Positions 6,189-57,334 of a stretch of 64,000 nt of DNA are shown in pieces. Under the pieces are notes generated by a model. That model was not told where the DNA came from. It was given only the letters and a program-made list of their open reading frames with translations, and ran no database searches. The position numbers and the translations under genes were made by a program. How positions within the stretch are numbered: the stretch's first letter is position 1; each line of letters begins with the position of its first letter. This DNA comes from Paramacrobiotus metropolitanus (taxonomy: Eukaryota > Tardigrada > Eutardigrada > Parachela > Macrobiotidae), in contig NW_026570272.1 of NCBI RefSeq assembly GCF_019649055.1, forward strand, positions 372,001 to 436,000, given 5' to 3'.

Positions 6189-7992
6189 TCAGATGGTCAG
6201 CGAGGGATCGGCGATGCGGCCGATGAAGAGCGGCACGTCGAGCTGGTTGTGCCAGACCAGCAGCAGGAAGGGCCGGTTGGCCAGGAAAGCCGGCCTCGGT
6301 ACGCACAGATACTCGGCGGAGAACATGGTGGCCACGCTCGACCGGACGCCCAGCTCGTCCACTTCTACGGAGAGACACACATACACTTCTCCGCAAATTA
6401 ATTCACAAATTATCAATGGTCAAAATGCAGGAATTTTCAACGTGCTAAAATCTCTCCGTTAACGGGTTTTCTACTGCTGTAGCTCCATAGTACTAAAACC
6501 AGGGCGCTATCCACTGGAAACCGAGAAAGTAGAAACGGCCGAAAAATGCACCGATGGGGGAATTGACCCCCGGCTACGTCGTTAGATCCCCGTAAGCAGT
6601 ACCACTGCACCACGGCGCGCATTACGTTGAAATCCTTTGAAAGACTTTGTCGCCGTACGTGTGTCGCTTCTCTCGTTACAGTAGTATAACAAATAACAAC
6701 CGGCCAAATTACTCACCGAACACCACGTTGTGCTGGAACGCGGTAGCGCCCTGCAGCGGACACTCCTGGAACATGTCGGAGAAGCCGGTGGCGGTGCGGT
6801 GCGAGTATAACTCCGCCAGACCCAGCGCCTGCATGCCGCGCTCCAGCTCCAGCTGGCAGTTAACCCGGAATTTCGGCAAGGATAGCGCCATACCATAGCG
6901 AATACTCTGCCGCCGCCATCCGCGCAATAACTTCACACTAAGACTCTCTTCCAGCTGCCGCAATGCCTCCCCGCCCGCGGCCGCCGGTAGAATACACATG
7001 ACACTGTACCGCTTCTCGCCGGCCTCCATAATCACCATCTGCGGATCCGTCGCCGCGGTCTTCTTCTCGACGTTAAACGGCGTCCAGGTCGTGTTTCCCG
7101 ATATCAAAAACGGGACTTTCTTCTGACTGCCGTCCAGGCAGGTAAACACGCCGTCGCGGGTGTCCTTCTCCTCGAACTGCAGCGCCCACGGCGCGGAGAA
7201 CGTCAGCAAATTAATCAGCACTAAACTGGTTAAAGGATTATCGAGAACGCTGCGCATATCGCCCACCGGCAGGCGGTCGGCCATATCGCTGCTTTCATGC
7301 TTTTCAAGAAACTCCGCATACGCCGCCCGGGCGGCGGTTGCGTTCTCAAAATCCACGGGTAAAAACACCACATCGGATTTGTTGAGCATTGCGTCTTTAA
7401 ACGACGGTTTCAGCGTGAGGAGTTGGCTGTACAAGACCGCGTTGACTTGGCTGAACGCCGCGTCACCCGCGACGCAGGATAACGCCGCGCTGACGTCATC
7501 GATGCTGCGCCCGTCGGGACACAGCAGCGCCAGAAGATCCTGGCGCAACTGATCGCGGGCGCCGAGGAGGCGAGCGAATAGAACGTGCTGGATGGAGTAG
7601 GGGCAGACGATCAGGTTGCTGCCGGCGCTGGGCGGTTGCGCTTGCGCCACGGCTTGGTAGATCTTAACGGCCACACCAGCTCCGCATCGCGGCTGCTGCA
7701 CGGCATTTTTTAGCTTTCCCCCTGGCCGTTGTATGCGTCGCGCTCTACTCTGCCGGGAGAAGAAACCAAGGAGGGATGAGCAGCCGCAACAGCTTATTTC
7801 CCGCCCGTCCTCTCCATTCTCACACTGAGATGCTTTCCACGGCATTTCCTTGTGCAATCCACGCGGACAATCTTCAAAATTACTGGATACGTATACAGGA
7901 TTTATTACAAACAATATTACTGCATAAACACGCTCGTATATCTGCTTATGGGGGTTAACATAAAACCCTGTTGCAGGGACATTAAACTGCAC
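6189..7992 (-). CDS. Serpin (serine protease inhibitor)
   Basis: Two exons: 7992-6717 and 6364-6189, with a 352-bp intron (6365-6716) and a phase-1 junction. The serpin fold runs from about residue 107 (VAVKIYQAVAQAQ, then NLIVCPYSIQ) to the end, about 375 residues, normal for the family. Recognisable elements are FSAPWALQFEEKDTRDGVF (gate and strand region), LSLPKFRVNCQLELERGMQ and the C-terminal ANRPFLLLVWHNQ...FIGRIADP. The reactive-centre loop (GVRSSVATMFSAEYLCVPRP) is encoded just after the junction. The hinge is short-sided but not Pro-blocked, so inhibition is plausible. P1 falls near Tyr-Leu-Cys, pointing to a chymotrypsin- or cathepsin-like target (inference). The first ~100 residues before the fold look unlike coding sequence and contain no clear signal peptide. 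The true start may be an upstream exon spliced at about 7700. Confidence 0.85.
6547..6619 (-). tRNA. tRNA-like sequence, probably a pseudogene or SINE head
   Basis: The minus strand has an A-box-like TGGTGCAGTGG, a B-box-like GGGTCAATTCC, and acceptor arms that pair at six of seven positions. A 5-bp anticodon-type stem closes an oversized loop of about 12 nt. Five Ts follow immediately (Pol III terminator). The T loop looks one base short and the D stem is poor, so a functional tRNA is unlikely. It lies inside the serpin intron on the same strand as the serpin. Confidence 0.35.
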
Positions 7993-10488
7993 ATAATTAT
8001 TTCATGAGCCCTTATTCCATACACCCGTTAAGCCGTCTTGCTAAGGTCTAAGGTAAAAAGTATATATATCAGAACTTGCCTTGCTCCTGGTTCAGATTTA
8101 CACAACATGTTCAATATAATCCGAATGATACAGAATGAAAATAAAATCGTAACTGACAGAACACTCAATTCGGCTGCATGGAGACATTTGAGAACGTTTT
8201 CATCTGCCGCTGGCTTGCAGGCCTATGACGATCGGTTGTTAAGTACTCGTACTTGTTACCCACTGCAAGCTGCCATGCGGCTTGCCATGCCATGTGGTTT
8301 AATATTGCATACAGACATACAGTGTAATGCAGCTCGTATAACTGATTGCGCTGTACTGAAATCTATTATACAAGTGCTTCACAGATTGTCCGGCGCCGTG
8401 TACTGACGGCTGGGCACGTGTGCGAGGAGACTTTGGGTAAGCAAAAGTCGAGCCAGGCTGGGAAAGTGGGATCGACGTATAGTGGAGCCGGGCGAGCGGT
8501 CACGATTGGCATCCGTGGCGTTAACTGCTACAAAAATGTCAGCCCTGGCAAACGTGGCAATCGGCACCACGGCGACCTTTGTGTTGCGCGCACCTTGTAC
8601 AAGTTAGTAATTGTAATGGTGAATTAATGTTAATATTTTTAACTCAGATATACGTTACAACTTGATAAAACTAAGTTTTTAAGTATACAGTTCACAATAA
8701 AAATTCTGATTTTTATAAACAATTTCTCTAATAATTATTAATCAACACGATCGTTATTGGCATTATTGTTTTCGCAACACTTAAAACGCTTAAACGCAAC
8801 ACTATGCGCTCCGGATTTACGGCGTGCATTGGAGAAGGTGTCCCCAACGGCTCCGTCGCTGCAGTGTTCCAGGTGCGCACTCGCGTAAGTTGACTGATGA
8901 CTGCAGTCTTCTGATTATAGACGTTAGTTATCCTTGTTACTGCAGCGGTGCCCAGGGATACGCTGAGACCGCCTACTGACGTTGGTGTCCTACAAGAGAG
9001 TGGTCTGGCCGGACACGCAGGGCGGCGGTTAGGTTACTATTGCCAATAACCGGCATTGACAGCTGGATATCAATACTGGGCGCGGGTATTTCTGGTTTTG
9101 GTTTTGTAATACTTCTTACCGATGTCAGAAAGTGGCATCGGTGGACAGACAACTGCGTACGGCAGCGATAATACTGTATACAAATATAAATATATGCCAG
9201 TGCCACTAATTTTCGAACGTTCTTGCTTTATTAGAGCTCTCTAGAGGTCGCAATGGAAAAAAACTGGAACGTCGTTTGCTGAGAACTGGTCGGCCTTCCG
9301 GTGCCAGCTTAACAATGAATAAATAAATGAGCAAATTAATGTATTGTACGAACATTAATATCATGTACAGATAGCAGCGTAAAAATAATAATTGTACGAG
9401 AAATCATATATCGTACGAATATATCGGATTACCCAAGACGCAGCATAAATCGGAGCTGCAGGCTCATACTGTAACTGTTAGAATTAATTTACACGAATTG
9501 CCGTTTAAATTTAAAGAAAACACAACAGCAGCTAGAATGCGTTACGGTAATCATCTACTGCAAAGCCACAGAAACAAGAGCTGTTTTTACGAGATTATGT
9601 ACGTAGCAGTATGAAATTCATATTAATATTATTAATGTACTTTTACAATTAACACTGCATGTGTACACTGAAAAATGGTGTACTCTATATGTTACCCTTG
9701 CGTATACGTGTGTGCATACAGGTATAATATTTAAAATATAGAATACTTACATGTAATTGTCGTGTATCTATATTATTTATGTACACACATGTAGTACACA
9801 TATACATCTACGAACTTGCGCATTTACTATGCGCGCCAAGATATTATTAAATAAGGCTAATGATATTGCCTGGCTTTCAATGATCACATTAATTTGGAAT
9901 CCTTATGTATACAGTGGTGCACTTATTTCCCACATACCGGTGTTTGCGTCGGAAACAATAAGAACTGGCGGACACCGATCATCGCTGACACTGAGAGCAT
10001 TTTCATTTGCGACGCTAACGATCAGCCGTATAAATTTCCGTGAAGCGCTTCCCATGATGGATCGCTTCCCATTATAGCGCAATAATAAAAGCTTGATGTT
10101 GGCGGAAGTTAGCAGGAAGAGGTTATATTACGATTATGTTAGCGTGGCCGGAGTTAGCGGAAGCCGGCGGAGTAGAGAACACTCCAACGGGATTTGCCGG
10201 CAGTCAGCCGTATCATACACCGGCTGAGCACGGCCTATATGCGCGCGTGACTCACCCACTCTTTGCCGAGAAGAGCAGCCGCGCCTGTGCGCTGCTCGGC
10301 ATCCTGTCATGCGCCGGCACTGCTCCTCCTCGAAACTATCGATCCGCCGCTCGGCTGGCGCTGCGGTTAAAACGTGCTGCATCGCCGTTTAATGTTCACA
10401 CTCGCGTTATAATTATCCGCATCCGCGGAATTATTTCCTCCCGTGCCTGCTGTGCATTGTACCCTCGATCGCTCCCATTCCCGTCGCC
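7993..10488. other. Intergenic, no confident gene
   Basis: About 2.5 kb, AT-rich from 8.6 to 10.1 kb with many short chance ORFs. There is no homology to other genes in the window. The GC-richer last 350 bp is probably the promoter or 5' UTR of the next F-box gene. Confidence 0.5.
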
Positions 10489-13400
10489 ATGGCCGACGAC
10501 ACCCAGTCCCCGTTGAAATCCCGCCGCGAGCGCTGGATCAACAAACCCTGGAAGAGCCTGACGCTGCTGCGTCCGCGCAGTAAGGACCGCAGCGACGCGC
10601 CCAGCGCCGCCTTCCGGCAGGTCTTCTGGCCCAGTCAGGAGGCGGTGTTGGTGGAGCAGCTGCCCGGGAAGTTCACCCTGGGCTACGCCTGCGACGTGGA
10701 CACCCACACCCACCGCGTCATGGTCGATCTGCGCTGCCACAACACGCCGCCGCAGTGGGTGCCCGCCGACACGGTGTGGGCGCACTTCCCGGCGGACCGG
10801 GAGCACCTCCGTCCGCACACCCCCGCACTGGCCGCGCTGCGCCGGGACTCCGCGGCCCCCCGCGTCTTCCAGCCGGGCGTGGTCCTCTTCGCCGAGCCGA
10901 AATGCCGCGCCGGCCTCCTGTACGTCGAGACGCAGGCCGACCGCCACGGGCCGCGACTGCGCCGCTTCGTCCACCCGGTGCACCTCCGCGTCGTCGTCCC
11001 AGGCGCCGACGGACGCCCCCGCATCCCGGATCTGGAGCTGCTGACGCAGCGCCTGACGGGGAAGAGCACGTGGCGCTTCCACCACGTGGCGGTCGGCCTG
11101 GAGCCCGGGCAGCACGAGCTGCTGGATCTGCAGCTGCTGCTGGCCACGGTGCGCAAGTACCGCACGGTGCTGCGCATCAGCGTGGAGGAGGAGCGCGTGA
11201 CCTTTGCGCTGAAGGAGTGGAACAGCTGCGAGCCCCTCACCGAGACGCACCTCAAGACCTTCGTCAAGGGGGCGCTGCGCGGCTACGTCGATTCGCCAGA
11301 GCCGGTGCGGGCCAACCGGCGGGCGGCGGTGTATCCGCTGGAGGATAAGAGCAGTGTCGGCTTGGGGCGGTTGCCTTATGAACTGCAGGAGGACATCCTA
11401 ATGGAGATCGAGGACATCCACAGCGTCGTCAACGCGCAAAGGTCACCACTGTTAATTAAAAAAATATTTAACTATTCAGCAATAACAAAATATAATTATT
11501 AATTTTTAGTATTTTATATAGGAAATGGCTATAGGCACCCCCTTTCACCCCCGTTATCTATAGGCACCCCCTTTCGCACCCACTTAGACTATAGGCACCC
11601 CTTTTCGATTAACTAATTCCTGCACCCCGTTGCACACGAAAACAACACATGACCAAGGACGATAAAGTGGAACTAGACAAAAGAAAAGAAGAGGGATGGT
11701 CAATCATGTGCTAGCCAAAATCCTAAGACAGAGGCCGGGCGAATATTAACATCGTGGTGTCCGATGCCCCAAAAGGTCACAAAAACTACCATCATTGCCC
11801 TCAGAAATGCAAGAATATTTATCAAATCAGCCAAACCGGCACATTGTCGGATGGAGTGCTTAGTATCTGTACAAATTTTATGTGAATGACCTAAAAAAAA
11901 AGATCGTCAAAAAAATCTTCAAAAAAATCTTTGTAAACCATGAAACCTGCTAGAAAATCTTTGTCAGGCTTGCGGGAAAAAAGTGAAAACAGGAAACAAG
12001 TGCGTGTAGTCCGCGAGAAAAACGGGGTGCTAGATTTATGTAACAGAAAAGGGGTACCTATAGTACAACAGGGTGCAAAAGGGGGTGCCTATAGCAAACG
12101 GGGGTGAAAGGGGTGCCTATAGTCTCACCCTTTTATATAATATGTTTATGTATACTCAGTATAGTATAAATAAAATAACAAATAATAAATAAATAAAAAA
12201 ATTAAACAAATAAATTTTTAACTAAATAATTAAAAAGAATAATTATGATAAATTTTAACTAATTTTTTAAAATTTAAATTAAATAAATTATAAATAATTA
12301 ATAAAAAAGAATAATTATTATAAATTTGTCAATAACATATATATGTATCATTATTACTTTAGGGTGTGCCGCGGCTGGCACGAAGCCCTGACCCGCAACC
12401 GGCGCGCCAACCACGTGGCCGTCGACCTGAACAAAACGGTAACGGCAACAGGAAGCCGGAAGCCGGACGAAAAGTACAACCTACCGCACCTGGTCAACCT
12501 GCTGGACAACAGCGTCAACGAGGCCACCGTCTCCTTGACCCTCATCGGCGACATCAACCCGGCAACGGAGCTGACCGTCGTCCACTTCCTCACCGCCCGC
12601 AACATCCGCCTGCCGCTCATCATCCTCAAGAAGTCCTCCTGCTGGCGCCCCCTCACGCAGAACCAGCCGGAGCAATCGCTGGAGCTGGCCAATCTCAGCC
12701 AGTTGATGCGCGTCTGCCAGACGTTGCGGCTGCAGGAGGTGACCTTTCCGGGACTGTTCGGGCCCATCGCCGGGCTGTGGTGCTCGCCGGCCCGCGTGCG
12801 CACCGACGTGGATGTGCATGTGCGCCGGGCGGAAGTGGACTGCATGGACAGCGCCGAGCAGCGGCTGGTGCGCTTCCTGCACATCCTGAATGACAACTGC
12901 CCGGAGCTGAGTAGCGGCGAGTGGGAAGTCATCAGCGCTGCGTGTGATGCGCTGGCGGCGTGTGCCGGACATCCCTTTCGCAGCCGGCTCTTCCTCATGC
13001 TGGCGCTGTACGTATTTCTTAGACTTCTTAGGCTTCTTAGATCTCCTAGATTTTTGCCAAATTTTTGCCGGATTTTTCCCCGGTTTCTCCCATATTTTTC
13101 CCTGATACTGCCGGATTTTCTCCCTTTTTTTTCCAAATTTTTCCTAAATTTTTCCTAGATTTGTGCTTAATTTTTTCTTCAGCCTTTCTTAACTTTTTAA
13201 AATTTTTCTTACATTAAGGAAAATGGCCCGGTACATAGCGTCAAAAATGGGATGCATGCACTAAAAGATTTCGCTTTCGCGCACTCCGAATCACTATTTT
13301 GTAATATTTTATGTCATTCTAAAGCTAAATGATTTGTGTACATTGTTCTGAAAACCAACGATTTCTTAGGTTTCTTAGACTTCCTAGATTGTTCTCCGGT

Positions 13401-13768
13401 TCCCAGATTTTTCCAGACTTTTCGTAAATTTTGCCCAGATTTTTTTTCATTTTTTCTAAATTTTTTCTTAGAATTCTTGGGTTTCTTAGATTTCTTATAC
13501 ATCCGGCATTCAATCGTTGCTGTGTAGGTTGAACGACACGCGGCCGTGTCAGCCGCGTGCCCTCGTGCACCAGCCGGCACTGTCCCGTTTAGCCGCGCAC
13601 GCCTTCCGCTACTCGTATCCCGGCGAAGTGCCCTCCAGCGGCCGCAGCCAGGGACGCGCGCTGCCGCGGGCGCACAGCATCACCTTCCAGACGGAGGGCA
13701 CCTGGAATATCGCCGTGCCGCAGTCCCGCCGCACCATATGTATGCTGCCGGGGTTGCCGTCCTTCTAG
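10489..13768 (+). CDS. F-box protein, family copy 2 (3 exons)
   Basis: Exons 10489-11441, 12363-13007 and 13528-13768 give 612 aa; phases match exactly. The N-terminal half has two conserved blocks (EAVLVEQLPGKFTLGYACDV...WVPADTVWAHF and VFQPGVVLF...RRFVHPVHLR), then a basic linker. The F-box is split by intron 1: LPYELQEDILMEIEDIHSVV ends exon 1, and VCRGWHEAL opens exon 2. The rest of exon 2 is Leu-rich (LVNLLDN, VSLTLIGDINPATELTVVHF), the probable substrate-binding part of an SCF ligase adaptor. Exon 3 gives an LNDT-starting tail shared with the copy at 16211. The 921-bp intron 1 carries a 610-bp transposon. Intron 2 is pyrimidine-rich with a degenerate MITE piece. I place the start at MADDTQSP because it aligns with the paralogue. 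Confidence 0.82.
11521..12130. mobile_element. 610-bp foldback DNA transposon (MULE-like)
   Basis: Each end carries three copies of CTATAGGCACCCCCTTTC-type sub-repeats, direct on the left (11529-11610) and inverted on the right (12050-12121). Together they form imperfect inverted repeats of about 110 bp. A 9-bp direct repeat, TTTTATATA, abuts both ends (11512-11520 and 12131-12139). Long inverted termini plus a 9-bp duplication fit a Mutator-like non-autonomous element. The centre codes for nothing. It sits in intron 1 of the second F-box gene. Confidence 0.72.
13218..13352 (+). mobile_element. Diverged left end of the TTAA foldback element
   Basis: It starts right after TTAA (13214-13217) and aligns with the left arm of the 48516 element. 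Shared blocks are GGCCCGGTAC versus GGGCCGGTAC, TTTCGCGCACTCC, TGTCATTCTA and GATTTGTGTACA. It is older and more diverged than the 5490 copy. It lies inside intron 2 of the second F-box gene. Confidence 0.6.
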
Positions 13769-14266: not shown

Positions 14267-14631
14267 TTAGCTGGGAATGGTCAGTTCGTCACCGGGATAG
14301 ATGCGGTCGGGATTGGTGAGCCCGTTGATCCGGGCGATATCCCGCCAGTCTTTGCCGAATTTCTTGGCGATCTTGAAGAGCGTGTCCTTCTCCTCGACGG
14401 TGTATTTAGTGGCCTGCGTCTGTCCCGATGATCCCGCACCGGAAGTCCCGTGGCGGTGCCGGCAGGCGCAGTAGCAGCTCTATAGAAAACATAAGAAGAC
14501 ATAAGAAAGCATAAGAAAACCTAAGAAAAAATGAGAAAAGCTTTATATATCGATTAAGCCGGCTTTGCGCGTTAACTGACCATGATGAGACTGCTGATGA
14601 GCATTACGCACAAGAGCGCTTTGGTCTCCAT
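14267..14631 (-). CDS. Small secreted LysM protein
   Basis: Two exons: 14631-14581 and 14479-14267, 87 aa. Exon 1 encodes a signal peptide (METKALLCVMLISSLIM). The donor is GTCAGT, the 101-bp intron ends in CTATAG, and the junction is phase 0. Exon 2 gives a Cys/His-rich stretch (SCYCACRHRHG), a Gly/Ser linker and one LysM domain (KYTVEEKDTLFKIAKKFGKD, then WRDIARINGL and a GDELTIP end). LysM binds N-acetylglucosamine polymers (chitin, peptidoglycan). The domain closely resembles the C-terminal LysM of the astacin at 20547-22373, so I infer duplication of that exon with gain of its own signal exon. The alternative is an orphan exon fragment with a chance signal peptide. Confidence 0.6.
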
Positions 14632-16210: not shown

Positions 16211-19200
16211 ATGTCGGCGGAGAACCACAACCTCCTGACGGCTAGTAGCCGGCGCGAACGCATCGACCGCTGGTTCAGCTCCCCCTGGAAATCCCTCATC
16301 CTCCTGCGCTCCCGCAGCAAGGAGATCAGCGACGCCGACCTCCATTCCCCCACGCCGGCACCCGACACCGTCCTCCCACGCCAGATCTTCGGCCCGAACC
16401 GTGACCCCGTCCTGGTGGAGGACGTCGAGGGGGGCCGGTACACCCTGGGCTACCTCTGCGACATCGACGTGCCCAGCCACCGCATCCTGGTGGACCGGAA
16501 GTGCCCGCACACCCCGCCGGAGTGGATCCCGGCCGACCGGGTGTGGGCGCACTGCGCCGTCCCGCGGGACACCATCACGCCGGACACGGCGCTGCTGGCC
16601 GCCGTCCGCGCCGACTCCGGCGCGCCCTACGTGTTCCAGCCGGCGCGGGTGTTGTTCGTCGGGAGTTTACTCTACGTCCAGACGCTGCACGACCACCTCC
16701 GCCGCTTCGTCCATCCGCAGCAGGTCCGCCTGCTGGCTCCCACCGACGCCGGCGTCCCCGGCATCGCCGACCCGGTGCGCGTCATGCAGTCGATTAAATC
16801 GGCGCGCTGGCGGTATAAAAAACGCGCCGTGCATCTGGATCCGTGGCAGGACGCGGAGAAGATCAATATGGAGAAGCTGCTGGACGCGCTGATGGGATAC
16901 AAGAACACCCACGGGGAGCGGTCGGTGGTGCGGATCCGCGTGGAGCGCGAGCGGGTGCATTTTTTCTACCGGGAATACACGGAGCATTCGCTGTCGGAGT
17001 CGGAGCTGCGCGAGCTGGTGCAGGTGGCGCTGCGCGGCGGGGTTCACGGCTCACCGGAAGCGCTGCGCAGTCGGCCGCCGCGGGTCCTGCACAGCCGCAG
17101 CAACTCCGGCGAGGACGGCGCCGGGCTGGCCGCGCTGCCGGCCGCCATGCAGCGCCGCGTCCTGGCGCACGTCGAGGATATCCACAGCGTCGTCAGCGCC
17201 ATGCGGTACGTGTATATATGCGGTAAACAAGTAATTAATCATTTCCCCGTATAAGCATCACGTTGACTTCCGGGCAGAGGGGATTATGTTGCGACAACAC
17301 GGTATTTATAGGGATTCAATTAATCACGCGCAACACTCATTAATTTCACCCGGCATAAATTGCTGATTAGTGATTAAACAACCGCTACTGCAGGATTTAC
17401 AGGATTTACAGATACTGGTCTGATTATAAATAAAATATTTTAATTTAATTAGCAGACAGCGGAGTAGCGATATCTGCCGGCATAAACGGCAGTAAAACAT
17501 AATTATTAAGGGTATATTTGCGATATACATCCACGAATCACGATTGTCTGGAATAACCGGTTAACTATCGGACAGATACTTTCTGTATATAAACACGATT
17601 TATTTTTAACGGTACTTAAAATGAATATTTAAATTATTTATGTTGACGCGATCCACCGGGATATCCTCGATCGTATCCGTAATCTGAAAATAATCAAATA
17701 AATATTTAATCGATTCGTCATTTTATATGGAGCAAGCCGCTTAATTAAGAAATAATTTATAAAAAAAAACGGCTTTAACTCGATTTACTGGAGTAGTCAC
17801 TTACTGTACTAATGACTAATAATTGAAATAATAATAATGCATTATTATTATTTATAAGGCTTATAGTAACTTTCTGATTGCAGCACCAACTTAATAAAAA
17901 AATATTTTAAGGAATATTAAATATTTTGACGAATTTTTTTTGATCATTATTATTAATTTAATAATTTTATTCAGTGTACTATACATACAATCTGCGATGT
18001 GGCTGATGCCGAATAAACCACTATAATGACTCTTTAATTACTGATTACTTAAACAAATATTTGCCGGTTTTATATTAATTAAATTTCCGCGACCACCTAT
18101 TTAATTAAAGTAATGGTACAACCATACTTAAACGGTTTGTATTTAACCGATTGCCCGGTGTAACCACTTGATTACTGTAATTAATCACTAAACTCAAATG
18201 CGTACGCACAGCAGTTAAACGCTTTTCTAATATTATTATCATCTCAATTCTCAATGTACGGAGAGTGTATCACGCGATGATGGTACGAGTATTACGTAAG
18301 AATATTTGTGTATAATTATATAAACTCAGCACGTTTATATTTGTGTACATGCATTATATAGATAAGTAAACGGCATGCAATCGTCGAATGCGGTATGTGC
18401 GCGTTCCGTGCCTGGTTGATTTAATTGAATTAGGGAACGCGAGACGACATGGTAAACATATATCTGCGCAGGGTCTGCCGGCTGTGGCGGGACTGCCTGC
18501 AGGAGCACTGGCCGTCGCCGCACATCGCCGTGGACGTCAGCCGTGCCACCAGCGTGCCGAGCCACAGCCGCAAGCAGGAGCAGAAGGACGGCCTGCACCA
18601 GCTGGTCACCATCCTCGACCACGCGGTCACCCCCCACACCGTGACCTTTACCCTCTTAGGCAACCTGAACCCGGCCCTGGAGGTGGCGGTGCAGCAGTGT
18701 CTGCGCTGCAAGAACATCCGCCTGCCGCTGCTCGTCCTCAAGCAGTGCACCTGGTGGCGCCCCCTGGCCCCCGACCCCCACCGCCCCGCCCTCCACTTCG
18801 CCGGGCTGCAGCCGCTGATGGCCGTCAGTCAGCGCCTGGCCTTCCGCCGCGTCACCGTCCCCGGCGTCTTCGGCCCCATTGCCGATTTGTGGTGCTCGCC
18901 GGCCAAGGTGCGGACGGACGTCGACGTGTGTTTGCAGCGGGCGCTGCTGCACTGCCAGACCGCCGAGGAGGAGCGGGTGCGGTGTTTCCTGGCGGCGCTG
19001 AACGAGAGCTGTCCGGACGTGGCGCCGGCCGACCGCGACCACGTCACCGCCGCAGTCAATAACGTCTTGGCGCCGTTCTCCGCGCATCCGCTACGGAACC
19101 GCCTCCTCATTATGCTGAAACTGTAAGTGCCTCAAAATATATTTTTTTATTATTTATTTAAATGTTTTTCTTATGGTTTCTCAATTTTTTTAAAATTATT

Positions 19201-19896
19201 TTTAGATATTTCCCAGTATATATTTGTTTTATTTTATATATATTTTCTCAATATATATACATTTTTATATATATGTATGTTTTGTTTTATATTATTTTAT
19301 TTTTTATAATTTTTTGAATTAATATTTTTTTATTTTGTACGTATTTGTATATGTTTTTGGAGAATTTGCGATGCGTTTTGATGGCGCGGGCACGTGCTAT
19401 TAGCGCCTCGTAAAGCGATCGCATTACGCGTGACCTTTGGCGGTTTTACGAGCCGGCGATTGGCAGTGCGTGTGACCGAGTGCGGAGTAATTGAATTTCT
19501 CTAATATAATAAATTGCGTGCTGCCACGTCCGCGGCGCATCGATCGCCGGCTGCTCACTTGTCTCCCTGCCGGCGCCATGAAAGGCTTATTTTGATGATT
19601 CCATTATCTCGCAATTGAATGGCCGTATTTTTAGACTGAATGACACGGATACCGCGCCGGCATCCGCGGCATCCGCTGGCGCTGCGGGAGGCCAGCCGTC
19701 CGGCTTGTCCAAACTGGCGATCCTCGCCTTCAAATACTCCTTCCCCAACGAAGTGACGCCCCGCTCGCAGAGCCCCATCCGCGCCTCACCCAAGCCCCGC
19801 CTCCTCGGCCACGACAATGAGGGGGACTTTTCCCGGCTGGCGCCCGACCCGCGCGCCATCCAGACGCGCCTCCCCAAATTCCAGATTTTCATGTGA
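16211..19896 (+). CDS. F-box protein, family copy 3 (3 exons)
   Basis: Exons 16211-17205, 18472-19122 and 19635-19896 give 635 aa. This is the closest relative of the gene at 10489, with identical intron positions and phases. The N-terminal motif SRRERIDRWFSSPWKSLILL matches SRRERWINKPWKSLTLL there. Conserved blocks follow: DPVLVEDVEGGRYTLGYLCD, WIPADRVWAH and LRRFVHPQQVRLL. The F-box is split: LPAAMQRRVLAHVEDIHSVV is in exon 1 and RVCRLWRDCL crosses into exon 2. The Leu-rich half has TFTLLGNLNPALEVAVQQCL and CKNIRLPLLVLK. Exon 3 (LNDTDTAPAS...LAILAFKYSFPNEV) parallels LNDTRPC...LAAHAFRYSYPGEV of copy 2. It is an SCF adaptor by family; the substrate is unknown. I start at MSAENH because it aligns with the paralogue; an in-frame ATG lies at 16166. 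Confidence 0.82.
17206..18471. other. Intron 1 of F-box copy 3
   Basis: A 1266-bp intron with donor GTACGT and acceptor GCGCAG. It is AT-rich with many TTAATTAA-like runs. I see no gene or transposon ends in it. Confidence 0.6.
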
Positions 19897-20546: not shown

Positions 20547-22373
20547 TTATTTAATAAGCAAGACCTGTCCTTCATGGAGATAATCCGGATCCGTAATACC
20601 ATTATCCCTGGCGATCTGCCGCCAGGTTTTGCCGAATTTGGCGGCGATTTTTGTGAGGGTGTCGCCGGACTGCACCGTGTAGCGGGTACCGCTACCTTTG
20701 CCGCCGCTGGGGGCCGGCGTTGGGGCGGGCGCCGGTGCGGGTGCGGGAGACGGCGAGGGCGACGGCGCGGCCTGGCATTTATATAGCCGGTTGATCTTCT
20801 GCACGTCGACTGGGCTGAGGCCGTGGCGTTGGCCCAGCGTCTTCCCGTGGAATTTGGCTTTGGGCCGGATGGTGTCGAGCTGGCCCGCCTTGCGGGAGAA
20901 GGCGTCCTTGTGGTAGTGCATCACCGAGCCGAAGTCGTACGGCGTGCCCTGCGCGTCCGAGTCCGACTGCTTCCGGAACTGGTCGTCCTTACCTAAAGGT
21001 CATGCCGTTATTAATTAACGCCGGCAACTTGTTTCTAGATTATTATGAAGTAACTGCTTAAATTATTATAATAAATTTTTATTAATAAATATATTTTATT
21101 ACATGTTATTAATATACAATTAATTATTTTTAAATATATATAATTATATATACATAATATATACATATTTGTTATTATATATGCATATAATATACGTGTA
21201 TATAATATAATAATTAGTAATATTTGTTAAAAGTTTAATTGTATTTTATGCATTAATAAAATGAATTGTACCGGGTTGGATGTTCTGCCAGAGGATGTCC
21301 ACGTAGTCATCGCGGTCTTTCCTGGATTGCTCGTGTAAAAAGCCGACGGTGTGCATCAGTTCGTGCTGGATTGTGCCGTGTCCTAAGCAGCCGTCTGCAA
21401 TTATACATACGTACAGAAAAAAATCAGCGCGCGGTAAATCATACGTTCGGCGAGGAGTTTAATTAAAAGCCGCCTACTTCTCTGCAGATTGACCAGCTGC
21501 TGGTTGCGCAGGCCGGTGCCGCGGTTGTGGTAGCGCAGCTGGCTGTGCGTCTGCCGGCCCCAGAAAGCGAAACACCTGGGAAAAAATTGGACCAATCAGA
21601 ACAGGAGAAATTAAACACTGGATTCGGCTTTTTCGTCAGCGAATTACCCTAGAAAGTGTAACTGAAAAGAAACTGGTCGACCGGTTTTCGAGAAAAAAAT
21701 CGGGTAATTAAAAGTAATTGATAAGTAATTAATTGCTGAAATTATTGTAGCCATTATTGAGTGAATAAATAAGCGATACGTTGACGTACCCGGATCGCAT
21801 GTGGTCGATGTAGATGGAGTACTCGTCGCCGGCCTGTTTGGGCCGGAAGCGGATGCAGGTCTTCTGCTGGAAGTCGTGAATGGCGTTGAGGATTGTCTGC
21901 TTGTCCTTCGCCGCTGCAACAACGTTAATGAACAGTATTAATCAGCGGTACATTGCAAGAACGCTTACAAACACGAGGAATGGCTACTCACAGTAGACGT
22001 TGGATATTTCGTAGGGAATCGTCCGGTCCGGCCACAAGTTCTCGCCCTTGGTTACGCCGCTGTACAGTGCGCCTTCCTGTTTCGACGGAAAATTGATTAA
22101 GCAAGTTGTTAATTGATACGGCGTGAAATGCTCACCGTTGGCTGGTAGCCGGCAATGTCGCCTTCGAACAGCGAGAACTGGTCTGCAAAAAAAGAGCCGG
22201 TCAGGTCGGAAAAGGTCACACCGGCAACGAACCCACTGACCTTCGTCCGCGCCCGCGTCCACCTCGTTTCCGGTGCTGTGCGTGTCAGCGTGGGCCAGCG
22301 CCAGCGGTAGATTGAGGCGCAGCAGCAGCAGACTGCTCACCAACGACACAACACTATAAAAACTGTGCATCAT
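20547..22373 (-). CDS. Astacin metalloprotease with C-terminal LysM domain
   Basis: Seven exons: 22373-22241, 22182-22136, 22076-21992, 21913-21790, 21575-21478, 21394-21272 and 20992-20547. All phases agree; 351 aa. Order: signal peptide ([20 protein letters not shown]), short pro-region ([16 protein letters not shown]), then the catalytic domain starting [10 protein letters not shown]. The zinc site is [12 protein letters not shown] in exon 6 and the Met-turn is SVMHYH in exon 7. The zinc-binding His residues, catalytic Glu and Met-turn Tyr are all present. After the domain ends ([12 protein letters not shown]) comes a linker of repeated Pro-Ala and Pro-Ser, then LysM ([20 protein letters not shown]...GQVLLIK). 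Astacins are secreted zinc endopeptidases. LysM binds N-acetylglucosamine polymers and could anchor the enzyme on chitin or bacterial walls (inference). There is no CUB or EGF domain, the usual astacin partners. Confidence 0.9.
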
Positions 22374-23026
22374 TCAGCAATCAGCAGTAAAAAAAGTAAG
22401 TAATAAGCAGACGACCGGTGAGTTGAATAATCCTAATTCTAGTACAACTGCAAATTACACTGGCACTTTGGACAGCGCAGCTGACTGGATCAATTTCTAT
22501 ACCGTATATTAATTAAGAGACTCCTTATATTATACTGTACAACATGTACAGCCAGCTTCGATCCGGAACTGACCGATTCCCGCTAAGGGAGCTGTCGATG
22601 CGCTGATAACAGGGAAATCGCGTCATGTTGTCGTTTTTGTATGGCCATGCCGGCTGTTGTGCGTGTCGCGGCTAGATGCCTATCCATCGCGATAACGGCG
22701 TTGCCGGCAATGACCAGCCGGCGTCGGAGGAAATTTCCGGCTGCGTCCACATGGCGTCGGCGCTTTACGGACACTGTACACCGGCAACATCTGATCTAAG
22801 ACCGGCGTGGTGATTAAGCACCTATCTCGCCGATGATCTACACACTCTGCGCGTCATTTGGACGTGTTCGGCAGCTTTTCTATAAATTAACCAAAAGCTG
22901 CACGTAGAGCGCCACCAGTGGGTACGCGCGTTAATAAAAATTCGGCTTGTATTTACTCGCTATACGTGCATAAATATTAGCCTTATATATACAATCATAT
23001 ATACGACTGTTATAAAATTATCGACA
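22374..23026. other. Divergent promoter region
   Basis: It separates the divergently transcribed astacin and Cys-rich genes. No supported exon. Palindrome-rich GCCGGC-type motifs occur at 22.6-22.8 kb. Confidence 0.5.
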
Positions 23027-23833
23027 ATGATTTGGCTGATCCGCAGCGCTGTCCTCCTCGTCCTGTCCGTCACCGCTCATGCCAACGGCAAAGGTAAAAC
23101 CAACAAGCCGGTGTATTTGGATTTAAGCGTGCCGTATTATTTCCTGAGCAGCGGCGCGCAGCCGACACCACCGCCGCCGGCGCCGACAACGCAGCGGCCG
23201 CTTAACCGCATTTCGACCAGTCTCCCTCCGACCACCATTGCGCCGGTGAATATCCCCGACGGCGAGCGCGAACCGGCGGAGGAGACGCCGACGTACCAGT
23301 GCTTCTACCAGCGCGATTTAACCGCCTACTGCCAGAAGATGGAGCGGTGCCGCGGCGTCCAACGCAGCCAGTTGCCGCTGCCGGGGAATCGTACCTACAC
23401 CGGCTACGCCTGTCCCGCCGCGCCCCTCACCCGCCTCAAGTACCACGTCAAGAGCGGTACGTCCGGGAATGTTCTTCTCTTAACCGGAAGTTGAAAAGGT
23501 TTCTCTTAGGCATCGCGTCGCGCGGTTTCGCCGGGCTCTTGTCGAAACCGGCCGCCGGCTCCGCGGAGCTGTTGTTCGTCTGCCACTTCTTCGCGCATTC
23601 TACGCCGGGGGAGCAGTCCTTCAGCTGCGCCCCGCCCATCGACTGCCGCACCCCGGGACTGCACGGGACGTCCTGCTCCGCCGGCGCGCCGTGGTTCGGC
23701 GTGTGGACCGGTGATTTGCAATTAGGTACGCAAAACAATTTCGGAGAATACTTCGTATAGGTACTTCGAGTTAATCATGTGCTTTGTAGGTTTGTGGGGC
23801 GTGGTCACCAGTGAGGCCCTGGAGAACGCGTAA
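23027..23833 (+). CDS. Secreted cysteine-rich protein of unknown function
   Basis: Exons 23027-23456, 23510-23725 and 23790-23833 give 229 aa. It opens with a signal peptide (MIWLIRSAVLLVLSVTAHA), then a Pro/Thr-rich stretch (residues ~45-75). A Cys-rich domain follows with CFYQRDLTAYCQKMERC, YTGYACPAAPLTRLKYHVKS, LLFVCHFF, SFSCAPPIDC and WTGDLQLGLWG. Introns are tiny (53 and 64 bp). The third exon encodes only GLWGVVTSEALENA; I trust it because the pseudogene at 56294-57133 has the same exon (LWGMVSTEAFA) after the same splice phase. I do not recognise the family. The secreted Cys-rich layout suits a matrix or defence protein, but no function is assigned. Confidence 0.8.
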
Positions 23834-24623
23834 ACGTGCGCCGAATCCGCGTTTCGGTTCCGGTCGGTCGCATCACCGGGGAATTTTGTACGCCAGCGGG
23901 CAGTCATTTTCTAAGTGGCGTCTGTGGCAGACTACCAACTGTGATCTAACATTTAATTACACTTAAATGTCGCCAGCCTGTACAGTGCTTAAGGCTTCTG
24001 TATTTTTGCCTTTAAATCGCTTTGCGGATGTGATATTTCATCGCCGGTATTTCAGCTTACAACGAAGCTGAAATACAACGACAATAAAATTATTGAATTA
24101 GATACAACAAAATTATTAAATCTGGTTATGTGCACAGCATGCATATGGGTGATTCTTTAATTTTATTGTCATAGTTAAAGGTCACCACTAGTATTATCTA
24201 CACAGCCGGTCATCGTTTGATCAACTGAGCATGAGACTTAATTCAGATCATAAATTCAGATCATAAACACAGCAGCGATTCAAGTTTGTACGTTATAATT
24301 ATTATTTTACCGGAATATTAGATATAAATACTGTCGGCAATTAAAACCAGATCAGAGCGCTAAATTAGTTGATTCCTGCTATTCCAGCAATGAGAACTTT
24401 GATGCAATAGTTTGAGGAGGCGGATCAGATCACCGGTTTTGAGACTGTTCAGGTTAACGTTGAAAGGTCACTGTTAAATCGCCATTTCATTCTGTATATA
24501 CACTGGGCGCAAGGCGGCGCCACCGACTGCTGGAACCGGCGTGAAATGGGGACGGATGAGCGTATTGCGCATTACCTTAGGTCATCTGCACATAAATAAG
24601 GAATTTTTATAAAAGGATATTTT
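23834..24623. other. Intergenic, no gene seen
   Basis: AT-rich spacer between two convergent genes. No supported exon or transposon ends. Confidence 0.5.
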
Positions 24624-43927: not shown

Positions 43928-46900
43928 ATGTCGGTGAGCGTGGAGGACGTGTGCGTGGAAGACGACGATCTGGCGCTGGAGGACGCGGACGAGGAAGCGG
44001 ACAACGAGAACAACCAGCCCCGCTTCGCCGTTTGCGCTTCCTGCCAGCATGTATCGCATCAGCATGCCAAGGTTGACGCTAGGAGAAGCAGTGCATCGAT
44101 GCAGGGAGGGGAGTGTAACAGCACACAACAACGGCGCAGGAGTTGGCAGAGTTCGCACACGCATGCTTCTCCGTATTCCGATGACGATAACGCGTCTTCC
44201 CTGCACCAAACCGACTCCGAGCTCCTCTCCGCCAGTAGCCTGGAGCGGCGTCTACGCAATGTCCTCAAGACGCAGAACGCCGGGGACGAGGAGAATGCCG
44301 CGCAGTCAAGGAAGAAGCTCGCTAAGGAGGTTCGCGGAGGCGCGCCAGTTTCCGTGGATTTCGCTGTTCCGGCGTTGATGGAGGAGGATCTCGGGAGGAA
44401 TCGCGGGGGAGACGAGGGGCGACGGGGGCGGGCGCGGATAAGGACGGAATCGGGGTGCCGGGAGGGGCGGGAGGGCGCGGGACGGGGGTATCCCGCGGAT
44501 TTCGATGCTGTGATGGGTGGCGTTCCGGTGGCGGAGAATTTCAAAACAGGGGACTTTCCTCTGCAGCAGGGTAAGCCTTCGAGTCATGCTGAATTTTTAA
44601 AATAATGGTAAGATAAATCAGGTAAATATTAAATTAATGAATAGGATGGTTTCGCAGATGATTATTTGTTAGACTGATTTAGTGGTTTTGTCGCTTGACG
44701 GGGGTTTTTTCAGGGAGTTTTTGGGATTACGTGGTGCGGTCTTGCCGGCGAGACCAGGGACAACGCGAGGACAAGGAGCGGATGGCGGAGAAGCGCCGCC
44801 GTATTCAGACCTTCCTTTCCGTCCCCTTCGAAGTAGAAAAGGTATTCCTGAATTTTCCAATTTTGATTTGCTTGTTATGTGCTAAATATTAGTTTTTTGA
44901 AAATCTAATATGGTCTTCCTTATCTTTTATTTGCTGTTTGTTTATTTCTAATTTTATTTCTTAATTTGTATTTGTTTTTTTTTGCAATTTTGCTTCGCTT
45001 TGCTTTCTAATTTCTCTTCGCTTCTTGTAATGTTTGTTTATTTCTAGTTTTTCTCAGCTTTTGCTCAGTCTGCATTTCTTATTTAATTACCTAGAAATTA
45101 ACAAATTACAGATTTCACTTCAGAGGGCTTGTTTATTATTTTTATTTGCCTTCTGTAAATTCTTATTTTTTAATTGCCATTTGATTATTTGTTAATTTTT
45201 GCCCTTGTTGTCCACGCCGACAGAAGTAGTTACTGAAATATGCTTGATTAATTTGCCATGTCTCTTAAGCATGGTTGATGTGATGGCAGGTGATGTCGCT
45301 GGGTACAATCCAGTGCGCGGACGCCTTCCTGTACGTGTTCACCATCTTCCCCATCCGGCTGTGCATCGCCTGGTGGCACGTGCTGCTGCTGGTGGGCAGG
45401 CTCTTCCGCAGTCTCCTGCACGTGGCCTGGCTGCGCCGGCGCCGCCTCCCGCCGCAGTCCGCCGACAATCCGCGGCGTCTGTACCCCACCACCTGCATCT
45501 GCGAGATGATCAAGGGCTCCTTCATCTTCCTCGGCGTCTGGCTCTTCACCTGGCTGGACCTCTCCGTCATGTATCACTTTCTGCGCGGCCAGGCCGTCGT
45601 CAAGCTCTACATCATGTTCAACATGCTCGAGGTAAGCCGATTAATCATTCTGCGTCAGAAGGAAGCATTATCAGCGTTAATTGGCAGGTGGCGGACCGGC
45701 TGTGCTCCTCCTTCGGGCAGGACATCCTGGAGTCCCTCTTCTGGACGGCCTCCCCCGCCGGCAAGGACCGGCCGGGCTACAAGACCATCAGCCAGCTGGG
45801 CATCATCCCGCAGATCATCACCGCGCTCCTCTATGTCAGTAAGTGTATTTTCCTTCTCTTTCTTTACGGATCGCGCGTAATTGTTTGGTTGTTGTAGTGG
45901 TGCATTCCTTGGTGGTCCTCGTGCAGATCACCACGCTGAACATCGCCATGAACTCACAGAACCGCGCGCTCCTCGTCATTCTCCTCTCCAACAACGTAGG
46001 TTGTTGCATGTGACAGTGGTGGGATTCTGATTTGATGGCAGTGGTTTTGTAGTTTGTGGAGATCAAGGGCAGTGTGTTCAAGAAGTTCGAGAAGAAGAAC
46101 CTGTACCAGATCTCCTGTAGTGACGTGCGCGAGCGCTTCCAGTTCATCGTGTTGCTGCTGATGGTGGTCATCCGCAACATGACGGAGCTCGGCTGGAAAA
46201 TGGGTTGGTTTCAATTAAGAACTTATCTCTATTTTTTGCTGTTATTTTTCTTGTTTACTAATTTATGATTTTCCCTGAAGAATTTATTTTCCTGTTCAGA
46301 TATCTTTTATTATTTTATTAATATTATTTTTGTTCTGCATGATTAGTTATTTTCCGAATTTCCATTAACGTTTACACTTTATTGGTCAAATCAAAAACGC
46401 AATACATAAACATAAGAAAAACACTGAACTATAACAGAAAAATTTCGTTCAGCTTCTCCAGCCCTTCCATCGTGCCCAGCACCGAAGCCGCATTTCCCTT
46501 AGGATTATTCTGTGTTATACGATACTGTGTAGTGTGTATTTTATTTATTTTGTGATTGATACAGTAATTGTTATTCCCAGTATGAATTTATTTTCCAGTC
46601 CATTTCTTTTATTTATTAATTTATTATTTCCCATTGCGAATTTATTTTCAAATTATTTCTGTAATTATATTACTGGTTAATTTATTACTTTCCATGACGA
46701 ATTTATTTTCTAAATTATTTCTGTTGTGATACGGATTAATTTATTTTTTTGCCACGGTTAATTTATTTGATAAATTATTTTCTATTTTTTGTTGTTGACT
46801 AGTTTATCGTTTTCCGTTATGAATTTATTTGTTGGTTGCAGTATTTGTAGTTTGCTGGTTAATTGCAGATAATTTCTGGGCGTGCCTGCCGGACGCGTTG

Positions 46901-48100
46901 CTGATCATCGTGGCGGAGGTGGTGGTGGACTGGACGAAGCACGCCTTCATCACCAAGTTTAACGAGATCAGCATGTCGGTGTACCAGGACTACACGTACA
47001 GTCTGGCCTACGACTTCGCCACCAGCCACCTGGATAACAACGTGAGACTCTCTATCCTGGCATCGTGTTGCTGAATAATTGAGTAATTAAGCCACCTTGC
47101 AGAAGTTCGCGGACCAGAGCGACTCGGTGGTGCGGCGCATGGGCTTCGTGCCCATCCCGCTGGCCATCATCGTCGTCCGCATCGTCTACCAGAGCTTCCG
47201 CTTCGACGACGTCCGCGACTGGCTCCTCCTCGGCCTCGGCTACGTATGGTAGGCCGGCATTAGAAAAAACATCCACAATTTCCGATTTTCTGACGACAGT
47301 TTGCAATCATTTCCAAATATACATTTTATATACATTTTTTAATGATTCGTACGATAAATTTTTATTAAAAACTTACTGATTTCTGTTTAAATACTCTCAT
47401 CAACGAAAATTATAGAATTAAATGAGTTTTCGCTATGAAAACTGCAACAATAAATAATAATAAAGGGAAAATAATCGGGGAATTTTTATTTAAAGCATTG
47501 CAGTGCGTAAACGCAAAAAAATTGGTCGAAAAAGATGCCATAAATTTTTTTCGGAGTCTGCTTTCGTTTTATAATTAAATTGAAATTATTTTCAAGATAG
47601 CGTGAATTAACAAAATTTGTTTAGCTGGTTATCCGGTGCTCAAGTTGATGATAAAAAATGGATAATAATAAGTCATTGTTAATAAAAAATGGGATAATAA
47701 TTAATTGGTGTGGCGCAGTCTGCTGACGACGAAGCTGCTGATCAACGTGCACCTGCTGCGCTGGTGCTACAACCTCATCACGGAGCACCGCAGCAAGCAC
47801 CGCGCGGAACGCCGCTGCCACAGCACGCCGGGCACGCGCGCCGGCTCCATCAGCAGTCTGGTGGAGGTGATGGAGCGCACTGCCCGCAGCGCCCCCTCCA
47901 CGCCGCCCCCCGCGCCCCCGCGCCGGCCGCGCGCCCCCTCCGTCGGGCAGACGCCGCTCTTCGCCAACAGCGAGCTGGAGCTGACGCTCATGAACGAGCA
48001 CCTCCGCGAGCCGCCGCCGCCGCGGCCCCTCACGCCGGCGCTCAGTCGCTCCACCTCCAGCAACGCCGGCAAGATTGACAAGGACAAGGAGGAACGCTGA
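43928..48100 (+). CDS. TAPT1: TAPT1-family multipass membrane protein
   Basis: Nine exons: 43928-44570, 44714-44841, 45290-45631, 45688-45838, 45898-45995, 46053-46203, 46869-47041, 47103-47248 and 47719-48100; 737 aa, all phases consistent. TAPT1 is an ER/centrosome-associated polytopic protein needed for ciliogenesis and, in yeast (Emp65), ER protein quality control. Exon 1 is a disordered acidic/Ser-rich N-terminus. The conserved core begins SFWDYVVRS and includes TIQCADAFLYVFTIFPIRL, YHFLRGQAVVKLYIMFNMLE, VADRLCSSFGQDILESLFWT, NFVEIKGSVFKKFEKKNLYQ (crossing an exon join) and TKHAFITKFNEISMSVYQDY. Several hydrophobic helices lie between these. The last exon ends in a Pro-rich, probably cytosolic tail. 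Exon 8's donor GTAGGC gives GYVC into LLTTKLLINV; a nearby alternative, GTATGG, breaks phase. Confidence 0.93.
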
Positions 48101-50970: not shown

Positions 50971-52970
50971 TCAGCTCTGGGGATGGCAGAGGGCTGCCCT
51001 GAGATCCGGAAAGATGTCGGGACAGTCCACCGGATGTAGCTCTGCCTGTGGCGCTAGTCGTCGGAAGCGGCTTTGCTGGAAACGAGAGAGCGCATCAGCT
51101 ATTTCATTATTAATTCCGGCAATATGCTTAAGCGTTAACGTCATGTTCGCGACTGCTGCGGCTTTAACTAAGCGACGCATGATATCCAGCACCCCGCGGT
51201 TAGTTGATCTGAGGTTTTCCCAAGCGTGCGTGGCGCCGGCATTGTCGCAATGGAAGACAACTTTCAAGCCGGCCAGCTTCTTTCCCCAGACGATCACGCT
51301 CAGCAGTATCGGTACCATCTCAAGATACTCAATGCACGGCTGCAGTTCAGTTATCCACAGTTGCCAGTGGAGCTGAAACCACGCCCCCTGACAATAAGCG
51401 CCGAGGCCATGTGTTGCTGAGGCGTCCGTGTACAGGTGCAGCACATCTGACCGCGTCCAGTCCGGCTGTAAAAAGGATGCGGTGCCGTTCCATGTCGGCA
51501 GAAACTCACGCCACCAGCCCAGATCCTTGTGAAAATCGGAGTTTAAGGGGATCATTTTGGTGTTCCGGTGAGTAGATAACAGCATGATCATCCGGCGAGT
51601 AAAAAGACGACTTGCTGGTACGCACTTCGATGCAAACTGCAGGACTCCGAGCAGACTTTGAAGCTGTTGCCGGGTGCAGAAACGCTGAGATGACCATTCT
51701 TCAAGAGCCGCTTGTATCTCATTTTGCTTTCCGGTTGGGAGACTAAGGGTTTGTCTCACAGAGTCGATCAGGATGCCCAAGAATATCAGCTGAGTAGCGG
51801 GTCCTTCGGTCTTGTCGTGCGCCAAAGGGACCCCCAGCTCACTGCATATTTGCGACATGGTGCTCATGCACGTGCTGCACTCGACACTGCCGGGCTTTCC
51901 GGCAAAAAATAATCATCCACGTAGTGAAGCATTGAGCTTAGACCGCTTCTTCTGCGCACTGCCCAGTCAATAATCTTTGCGAATTGCTCAAAGATGTAAG
52001 GAGAAGATCGTAGCCCAAACGGAAGTACCACGTCGAAGTAGTACTGTCCGTTCCAGCGATACCCGAGCAGATTCCAAAGATCGCGCCGCACCGGAATCAG
52101 GCGGAATGCTGACTTGACGTCCATTTTCGCCATCAACGCGCCCCGGCCCAAGCTGCTCAAGATGGCAACAGCATCGTCGACGGAGCAGTATTCCAACGGA
52201 AGCTTATTGACGTCAATGGCATCGTTCACGCTGTCCCCGGTGGGCTGCGATAAATCCATGATGACTCTTACAGTGCCGTCCTTCTTCAGCCGCGCACCGA
52301 GAGAATTCGTAACAAAGTGGGGTAAAGGTGGTGATAAGAACGGTCCGACGCTGTGACCTTTCTCCACTTCTTTCGTGATGTATTCAGTAACGGCGGCGTT
52401 GTGGGTCTTAGCGGTTGCCGCATTGGGAGTGTACCGTTCTTTCTGCGGTCCATCATAGAAAATATGCGCACCGTGTGCCAGCGTGTCCAGTATAAACGAC
52501 ACTACTGACGCATCAGGATACTCAGTGAGCAGTTCGGCGAAAGCGGTGGTGCGCAGTGGTGTAGTCGCTCTCGCCGGCACTGTCAGCTCAGGTACCAACT
52601 TTGGTGCAGTTAACTGCGCGGTGGTTCGACTCCCCGCATCGCGAACAGGAGTGTTGCCGGCCGGCCTTGCAAGGAGTGGTGCAGCCGCCGAAATTGAAGT
52701 TACGGCAGATTTCTCCGTCCGCGGCGGAAGCGGTCCGAAAGGGCTGCCCGTACCCCGGCTGTCCTTTACGCGGTAGCGGGCAGCTCTTAATAAAATGCCC
52801 AGGCATACCACAGTTGCGACACTTGTCGTCCGCTTTCCGGTTTTTATCTTGACGACTACCAGCATCTGTGCGTTCTTTTTCGTGACGTGGAGGAGCATCC
52901 GTGGTGTTGCGGAGCGGATTCTGGATGCAGTCGATGTATGTGTCCTCATGCTGATGCGCCCATAGTTCAT
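50971..52970 (-). pseudogene. DIRS reverse transcriptase and RNase H, frameshifted
   Basis: RT blocks: VTNSLGARLKKDGTVRVIMD, LMAKMDVKSAFRLIPVRR, VVLPFGLRSSPYIFEQFAK and the active-site YVDDYF. RNase H-type blocks: LHLYTDASATHGLGAY, LVFHCDN-like KVVFHCDNAGATHAW and HIAGINNEIADALSR. The frame changes at about 51905 in a run of six Ts just after YVDD, separating the two halves; this may be a real mutation or a homopolymer sequencing error. Confidence 0.85.
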
Positions 52971-53860
52971 ACTCCCGCGGGTGGCTGGTCATGAATGCAC
53001 GGAACTGCCTGTCGTACTCCGGCCAGTTTGCGGTCGGGACCCCACGCTCGGCATACGACGCAATAATAGCCAAATACTTGAAAAATTTAGCGCTTAACTG
53101 CGGGGCGACAGTGATGCGATATTCCGAGAACACAGAAAATGCACCTGCCCACGATGAAAAAGAATCAATGCTGATTTTACCGTCTTCCGGGGTAATGGTC
53201 ATCTTCCCATCCACAAAGCTTAGATTTGACTGCAATTTCTTGGGCTTTTCCACTCTGTTGCGTCGCAGCAGCAAGTCAAAATCCACGTATTCAGTGAGGT
53301 CCAGCAGTTTCTTCCGCAGCTTTTATCCGGTATGGCCGGGAGCTGGTGATTTGTCTGGTCCGAGACAAATGGCTGCGTAGAAGGTTGTCCCGAATGGCCA
53401 AACATATCGGGGCGGTTGCCATGGCGCTGCAGTACTGCACTGTCTTCTGGCAAGCTCTCATCGTCGCTACCCTGTTCGGAGGATGAGGTAACACTTTCCT
53501 TACCTCGCTTCCGACGCTTCGCCTTTTTTCCATTGTCTGCCTTGCTTGTGGAGTCCACCTGGTGCACGATTCTTCCGAAATCGTCGCCAAGCTGGATCCG
53601 CAAATTAGATGACGGCGAAAGCGGCCGGGCGGCCTGCGGTGGCTGGTTTTTACAATGGCAATCAACGAGTCCATCTGTTGCTGGTGTTTTTGCTGCTGCT
53701 GAAAAATGGACTGGAGAGTGGGCTCCAACAACTGAACTTCGGCAGGCTCAGGGCGAACGATGACGCTCTTCAAGCGCTTCGCGGGCGCTGTTCCACGAGG
53801 TTTTCCGACAGCACGACGCGGTTTCTTGGCTGTCTTCTTGCTTCTCGTGGATGGAGGCAT
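52588..53860 (-). pseudogene. DIRS gag-like protein, frameshifted
   Basis: A basic N-terminus (MPPSTRSKKTAKKPRRA) and a Gln-rich coiled segment, a capsid-like region (WAGAFSVFSEYRITVAPQLS, FKYLAIIASYAERG), then zinc knuckles: CRNCGMPGHFIKSC (CCHC) and CSRCGESNHRAVNC. Frames shift near 53620 and 53320. The 3' part overlaps the start of the RT frame. Confidence 0.78.
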
Positions 53861-57133: not shown

Positions 57134-57334
57134 GCTCGATTGCTGACTATATCTGTATACGTGGTTAGTGAACGCGCACATGCACTTGAGATATTCTAAG
57201 TGCAGCATTAACGGAGTCAACTTTGACGACGTCGGCCTTAAGTTTACAGAAGTTAGCGTCGGGTTAGTTGGTATCCTAGCAACGAGGAATTTGTTAAACG
57301 TGGACATAAAGGTCCGTACTATCAGACGACCATA

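Follow-up and report, generated by a model that had tools for sequence, protein, structure and literature searches.

An apparently intact tardigrade gene that joins an astacin protease to a LysM domain and lies near a stand-alone LysM gene

Why would an animal protease carry a LysM domain at its C-terminus, and where might such a domain have come from? LysM domains are far better known in bacteria, fungi and plants than in animal proteases. The locus that raises these questions lies in a 64-kb stretch of Paramacrobiotus metropolitanus DNA, the whole of which we call the window. The sequence-only reading had described an intact gene in which an astacin protease is followed by a Pro/Ala linker and a LysM domain, and had proposed that the product is targeted to a glycan. 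The coordinates, strand and motifs that it gave match our splice model exactly (22373-20547, minus strand). The features of the gene are as follows.

20547..22373, minus strand: astacin-LysM gene, coding part, 7 exons, 351 aa (splice model and Pfam)
22373-22241, minus strand: exon 1, signal-like hydrophobic N-terminus (from sequence, by eye)
22182-22136, minus strand: exon 2, pro-segment with FEGDI, the aspartate-switch motif FXGDI (splice model and motif)
22076-21992, minus strand: exon 3, end of the pro-segment and start of the catalytic domain (splice model)
21913-21790, minus strand: exon 4, catalytic domain with the first conserved Cys (splice model)
21575-21478, minus strand: exon 5, catalytic domain, carrying an insertion of 14 residues (splice model and alignment)
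21394-21272, minus strand: exon 6, zinc site (splice model)
20992-20547, minus strand: exon 7, a single frame with the Met-turn SVMHY, the last Cys, the Pro/Ala linker and the LysM (splice model)

The gene model is a prediction from splice signals and homology. All six introns are GT-AG and range from 58 to 279 nt, the first of them being in phase 1. The seven exons are open and the 1056-nt CDS has its sole stop at the end, giving 351 aa; the gene appears intact, as had been claimed. The presence of both domains in one gene was also borne out, as the Pfam scores (PF01400, E 3.6e-56; PF01476, E 2e-15) exclude chance. An open frame at 20547-20999 (minus strand) spans the Met-turn, the linker and the LysM, all in one exon; thus, the fusion requires no splicing between the domains. 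The junction of exons 6 and 7 falls within the catalytic domain and not at the astacin/LysM boundary. RT-PCR across these exons, which had been suggested as a check, would therefore probe the catalytic domain rather than the fusion. These results confirm that astacin-LysM is a real and sound gene, apparently intact, as predicted by splice signals and homology.

The Astacin profile PF01400 matched residues 75-277 with 190.3 bits (profile positions 2-189 of 189), where the Pfam cut-off is 22.5 bits. In the 2023 astacin survey, the family is described by its zinc site (together with the family glutamate and an XXRXDRD motif), the Met-turn SIMHY and an FXGDI aspartate switch (PMC9848320). In the tardigrade product, the pro-segment motif FEGDI begins at residue 50 of 351, the zinc site (HEXXHXXGXXH, the family Glu and XXRXDRD) is present from residue 173, and the Met-turn, which had been noted earlier, reads SVMHY at residue 226, with Val for Ile relative to SIMHY and the Tyr ligand kept. 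The four cysteines of the product (108, 131, 165 and 276) share Cys columns with other astacins in our alignment A1, in which the crayfish fragment ends before the last of them. The N-terminus looks hydrophobic and signal-like by eye. Over the parts compared, the catalytic domain is 48% identical to the zebrafish, 45% to the medaka and 40% to the crayfish astacin fragment. Judged by its residues, the predicted astacin domain is complete, with all catalytic and zymogen residues in place. Exon 5 encodes an insertion of 14 residues beside the second conserved Cys, which is absent in all three of these astacins. A mini-intron was considered at this point and rejected, as no GT-AG pair was found by eye, and the insertion was retained as coding.

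Several other features were observed in the window. A Pro-rich, secreted-looking gene at 22800-24000 (plus strand) adjoins the astacin gene, and its inverted paralogue lies about 33 kb off at approximately 56305-57140 (minus strand), with 71.6% DNA identity over 486 nt. Pfam matches elsewhere in the window were to serpin, F-box, Ig, LRR and DUF747, which give it a metazoan look. The serpin gene has at least two exons (6192-8001, minus strand), and the DUF747 gene (eukaryotic membrane protein family) has several (45284-47071, plus strand). A retroelement at 50971-53322 (minus strand) has CCHC zinc knuckles as well as a reverse transcriptase (RVT_1, 1e-8), and an ORF at 62642-63874 (plus strand) resembles a LINE-type C-terminus by eye and had no Pfam match. 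Rfam and tRNA scans of the 64-kb window gave no match.

The catalytic domain is followed by a linker of 28 Pro, Ala, Ser and Gly residues, 17 of which are P or A, in agreement with the Pro/Ala linker reported earlier. After the linker, PF01476 matched residues 308-351 with 56.9 bits (profile 1-43 of 43; cut-off 20.9 bits). This part of the protein was also modelled on its own.

20550..20696, minus strand: LysM domain as folded alone, 49 aa (structure model, Foldseek, phmmer)

From the single sequence of 49 residues, five models spanned pLDDT values of 59.4-90.3. The best of these (90.3) has a strand at 4-7, helices at 14-21 and 25-32, and a strand at 45-48. Thus, the isolated domain is predicted to adopt the beta-alpha-alpha-beta fold of LysM. 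With this model, Foldseek returned five matches at E <= 0.001 (best E 4.6e-4), the top ones being LysM structures. Three of the five are chains of 4uz2, which holds the LysM domains of an endopeptidase from T. thermophilus; the others are 5c8o (a MoCVNH3 variant) and 2mkx (the AtlA LysM).

The window also contains a second LysM, which had not been recorded in the earlier reading. It belongs to a stand-alone gene about 6 kb from astacin-LysM, and each of the two LysM genes has an F-box-like neighbour.

14267..14631, minus strand: stand-alone secreted-type single-LysM gene, 87 aa; exons 14631-14581 and 14479-14267 (with stop), intron 101 nt, GT-AG
10489..13768, plus strand: F-box-like gene F2, 612 aa, 3 exons (Pfam F-box-like 24.9 bits, just over the cut-off of 24.3)
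16211..19896, plus strand: F3, paralogue of F2, 635 aa, 3 exons (Pfam F-box-like 17.4 bits, below the cut-off of 24.3)

When the window was searched by tblastn with the astacin-LysM protein, the second LysM appeared on the minus strand at 14437-14276 (E 6.5e-13; 55.6% over 54 aa), and Pfam matched it as LysM at 1.5e-15. The two domains are identical at 27 of 46 residues (58.7%). Exon 1 of the stand-alone gene (51 nt) encodes a hydrophobic, signal-like start, and its first intron is in phase 0. Profiles that included the window's own sequences gave a total of two LysM domains and one astacin for the 64 kb.

F2 and F3 have the same three-exon layout and are identical at 267 of 601 aligned residues (44.4%). 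F2 is tail-to-tail with the stand-alone LysM gene, with 498 bp between the stops, and F3 is tail-to-tail with astacin-LysM, with 650 bp between the stops. Between these two stretches, blastn found five colinear matches, one of which covers 57 nt within the LysM (77%). Because both LysM genes stand tail-to-tail with paralogues and the blastn matches are colinear, these results suggest that an F-box-like/LysM pair was duplicated locally, after which a LysM was captured by an astacin gene or an astacin part was lost. In its specific form, a tandem duplication of the tail-to-tail pair, with one LysM becoming the same-exon C-terminus of an astacin (or with the neighbour losing its partner domain), this history is a real possibility that we put forward tentatively. 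The direction, fusion or loss, cannot be inferred: by eye, exon 1 of astacin-LysM bears no resemblance to that of the stand-alone gene, and the first introns differ in phase (1 vs 0). Two other features were seen in the window: another F-box exon (1442-2326; PF00646, 3.1e-6), only weakly similar to F2 (E 0.01) and F3 (E 0.042), and a MITE-like inverted-repeat element at 11528-12122 in intron 1 of F2, with terminal CTATAGGCACCCC-type repeats and best arms of 110 nt that are 79% complementary.

We also computed a maximum-likelihood tree over about 45 columns from 22 LysM sequences: the window's 2, another 10 from plasmids and 10 PDB chain pieces. Its animal LysMs were those of the window. The two window LysMs were not recovered as sisters in this tree, so the duplication reading is without tree support. 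Instead, the astacin LysM grouped with a Paraburkholderia LysM with a support of 76, other supports being mostly low. The astacin LysM is 58.1% identical to the Paraburkholderia domain vs 57.4% to its stand-alone neighbour, whereas the best match of the stand-alone LysM within the tree set is the astacin LysM (57.4%; next 52.3%). About 45 columns cannot decide LysM kinship, and the tree gives no help to the duplication reading. If that reading is true, fused and unfused products stand side by side in the window, and the event would have yielded a protease tethered to chitin or peptidoglycan. We regard the stand-alone neighbour as the most informative addition of this work. It also leads to a concrete hypothesis on the way in which a LysM came to an animal protease.

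Could the combination have a prokaryotic counterpart? We sampled 398 genomes, all from the phylum of Idiomarina xiamenensis. Among species genomes there were 37 matching stretches, one of which was confirmed, that of Idiomarina xiamenensis. PF01400 matched at E <= 0.001 in 16 of the 398 genomes, at 19 places, and alignment A1 in 7. Pfam found LysM at E <= 0.001 in none of the 19 ORFs scanned (L003-L020 together with L001, whose gene is also listed as L002). The Idiomarina ORF (L001) was alone in being a strong astacin, with 179 bits; the remainder scored at most 57 bits, and many of these weaker ORFs match other metzincin families too. On viral contigs, the astacin-LysM protein matched one stretch and the alignment 16, and none was confirmed. 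The phage collection gave no match. Matches occurred in 18 plasmid records, and none of the four examined had a LysM. Thus, no prokaryotic astacin-LysM was found in this small sample of one phylum's genomes, four plasmids and phages.

Based on these results, we propose a model for the function of the protein. The product would be secreted as an M12A zinc metalloprotease zymogen, silenced by the aspartate of FEGDI, and removal of the pro-segment would yield the active enzyme. The C-terminal LysM, on its flexible Pro/Ala linker, may then keep the enzyme attached to polymers of GlcNAc, with chitin as the likeliest of them, where it would cut proteins in or on a chitinous layer: the moulting cuticle, the pharyngeal or gut lining, or the eggshell at hatching. 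We infer the secretion, enzyme activity, GlcNAc binding, chitin target and tissue in this model. Given an intact astacin domain and a real LysM, the glycan-targeted protease of the earlier reading is plausible, with binding as its conjectural part; the two roles suggested there, in cuticle remodelling or in defence, would both be candidates. Chitin is favoured for two reasons: protein and chitin together make up the cuticle or eggshell of an ecdysozoan, and among solved structures the catalytic domain comes closest to enzymes of the hatching type. We hold this reading, a secreted zymogen tethered by its LysM to GlcNAc polymers, most likely chitin, and cutting the proteins of a chitinous layer, with moderate confidence. 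If it works in this way, astacin-LysM would amount to a natural enzyme directed at a glycan matrix, relevant to moulting or hatching.

The main rival to this model is that the LysM targets the protease to bacterial peptidoglycan, the enzyme then acting in the gut or at the surface, either in defence or in the digestion of microbial food. In phmmer searches of the PDB sequences with the LysM, the top score belonged to the LysM of a peptidoglycan hydrolase, LytE (8i2e, 57.9 bits). However, the chitin-binding Ecp6 (4b8v) came second with 51.6 bits, and because the domain matches both, sequence cannot separate peptidoglycan from chitin binding. The nearest bacterial relatives of the astacin LysM, at up to 58% identity, lie in peptidoglycan-binding and unannotated stretches. 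The astacin LysM has no cysteines; PMC5297725 describes two groups of nematode LysM domains, one with three conserved cysteines and one without. By these features peptidoglycan would be as fair a ligand as chitin, although the substrate of an astacin is protein and not glycan. On balance, we consider targeting to peptidoglycan rather unlikely.

Less probable still is that the LysM is a passenger, which folds without useful glycan binding on an ordinary digestive or secreted astacin. A single LysM is often a weak binder, and there is a single copy here. Additionally, the stand-alone neighbour has drifted at the first loop, where it reads YTVEEKDTL vs YTVQSGDTL in the astacin LysM. The astacin LysM itself, however, retains the consensus residues and has a Pfam score of 56.9 bits, and its low-complexity linker is typical of binding modules. 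A pseudogene, a chimeric assembly or a false gene join is very improbable: the gene model was built from splice signals only, but its exons are open, its introns are GT-AG, the catalytic C-terminus and the LysM share one exon, and the architecture has been published for a tardigrade (PMC9848320).

The chitin-tethered protease that we favour would not be the first astacin with a LysM. The legend of Figure 1 of the 2023 survey includes LYSM in its list of additional astacin domains, that of Figure 4 names an aligned "LysM RAMVA" astacin of the tardigrade Ramazzottius varieornatus, and Table 1 gives UniProt A0A1D1VZ89 and A0A1D1VI43 for this species (PMC9848320). Thus, the architecture is already catalogued and is not new, and the surprise is moderate at best; the novelty implied by the sequence-only reading falls away. 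That reading had also asked whether the architecture is common and already characterised. It is catalogued, but nothing that we saw suggested a common architecture, and we found no functional study of an astacin-LysM protein in the literature, as judged mostly from titles and the openings of abstracts.

The protein was also compared with known systems. LytE, a peptidoglycan hydrolase, and Ecp6, a chitin-binding fungal effector, match its LysM in sequence, but both have several LysM copies, none of them on a metalloprotease, whereas the window protein has one LysM on an astacin. The best PDB match to the catalytic domain was zebrafish 3lqb (LOC792177; 1.1e-41), and medaka 3vtg (High choriolytic enzyme 1; 2.1e-36) was among the best; we take both to be fish hatching enzymes, which soften egg envelopes. 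Their matched chains consist of the catalytic domain alone, while the window protein has in addition the LysM and the 14-residue insertion. Crayfish astacin (3lq0, 6ht9 and 1ast) likewise is a zymogen with a FEGDI-type pro-segment and the common catalytic core, but its matched chains are without a LysM. The bacterial astacins (Idiomarina L001 and the plasmid-borne ones of Thermus, Flammeovirga and Sinorhizobium) share a full PF01400 match with the window protein but, unlike it, have no Pfam LysM in any of the five. Among the closest systems, as far as the figure legends describe it, is "LysM RAMVA" of Ramazzottius varieornatus, likewise an animal protein that has both a LysM and the catalytic domain of an astacin (PMC9848320).
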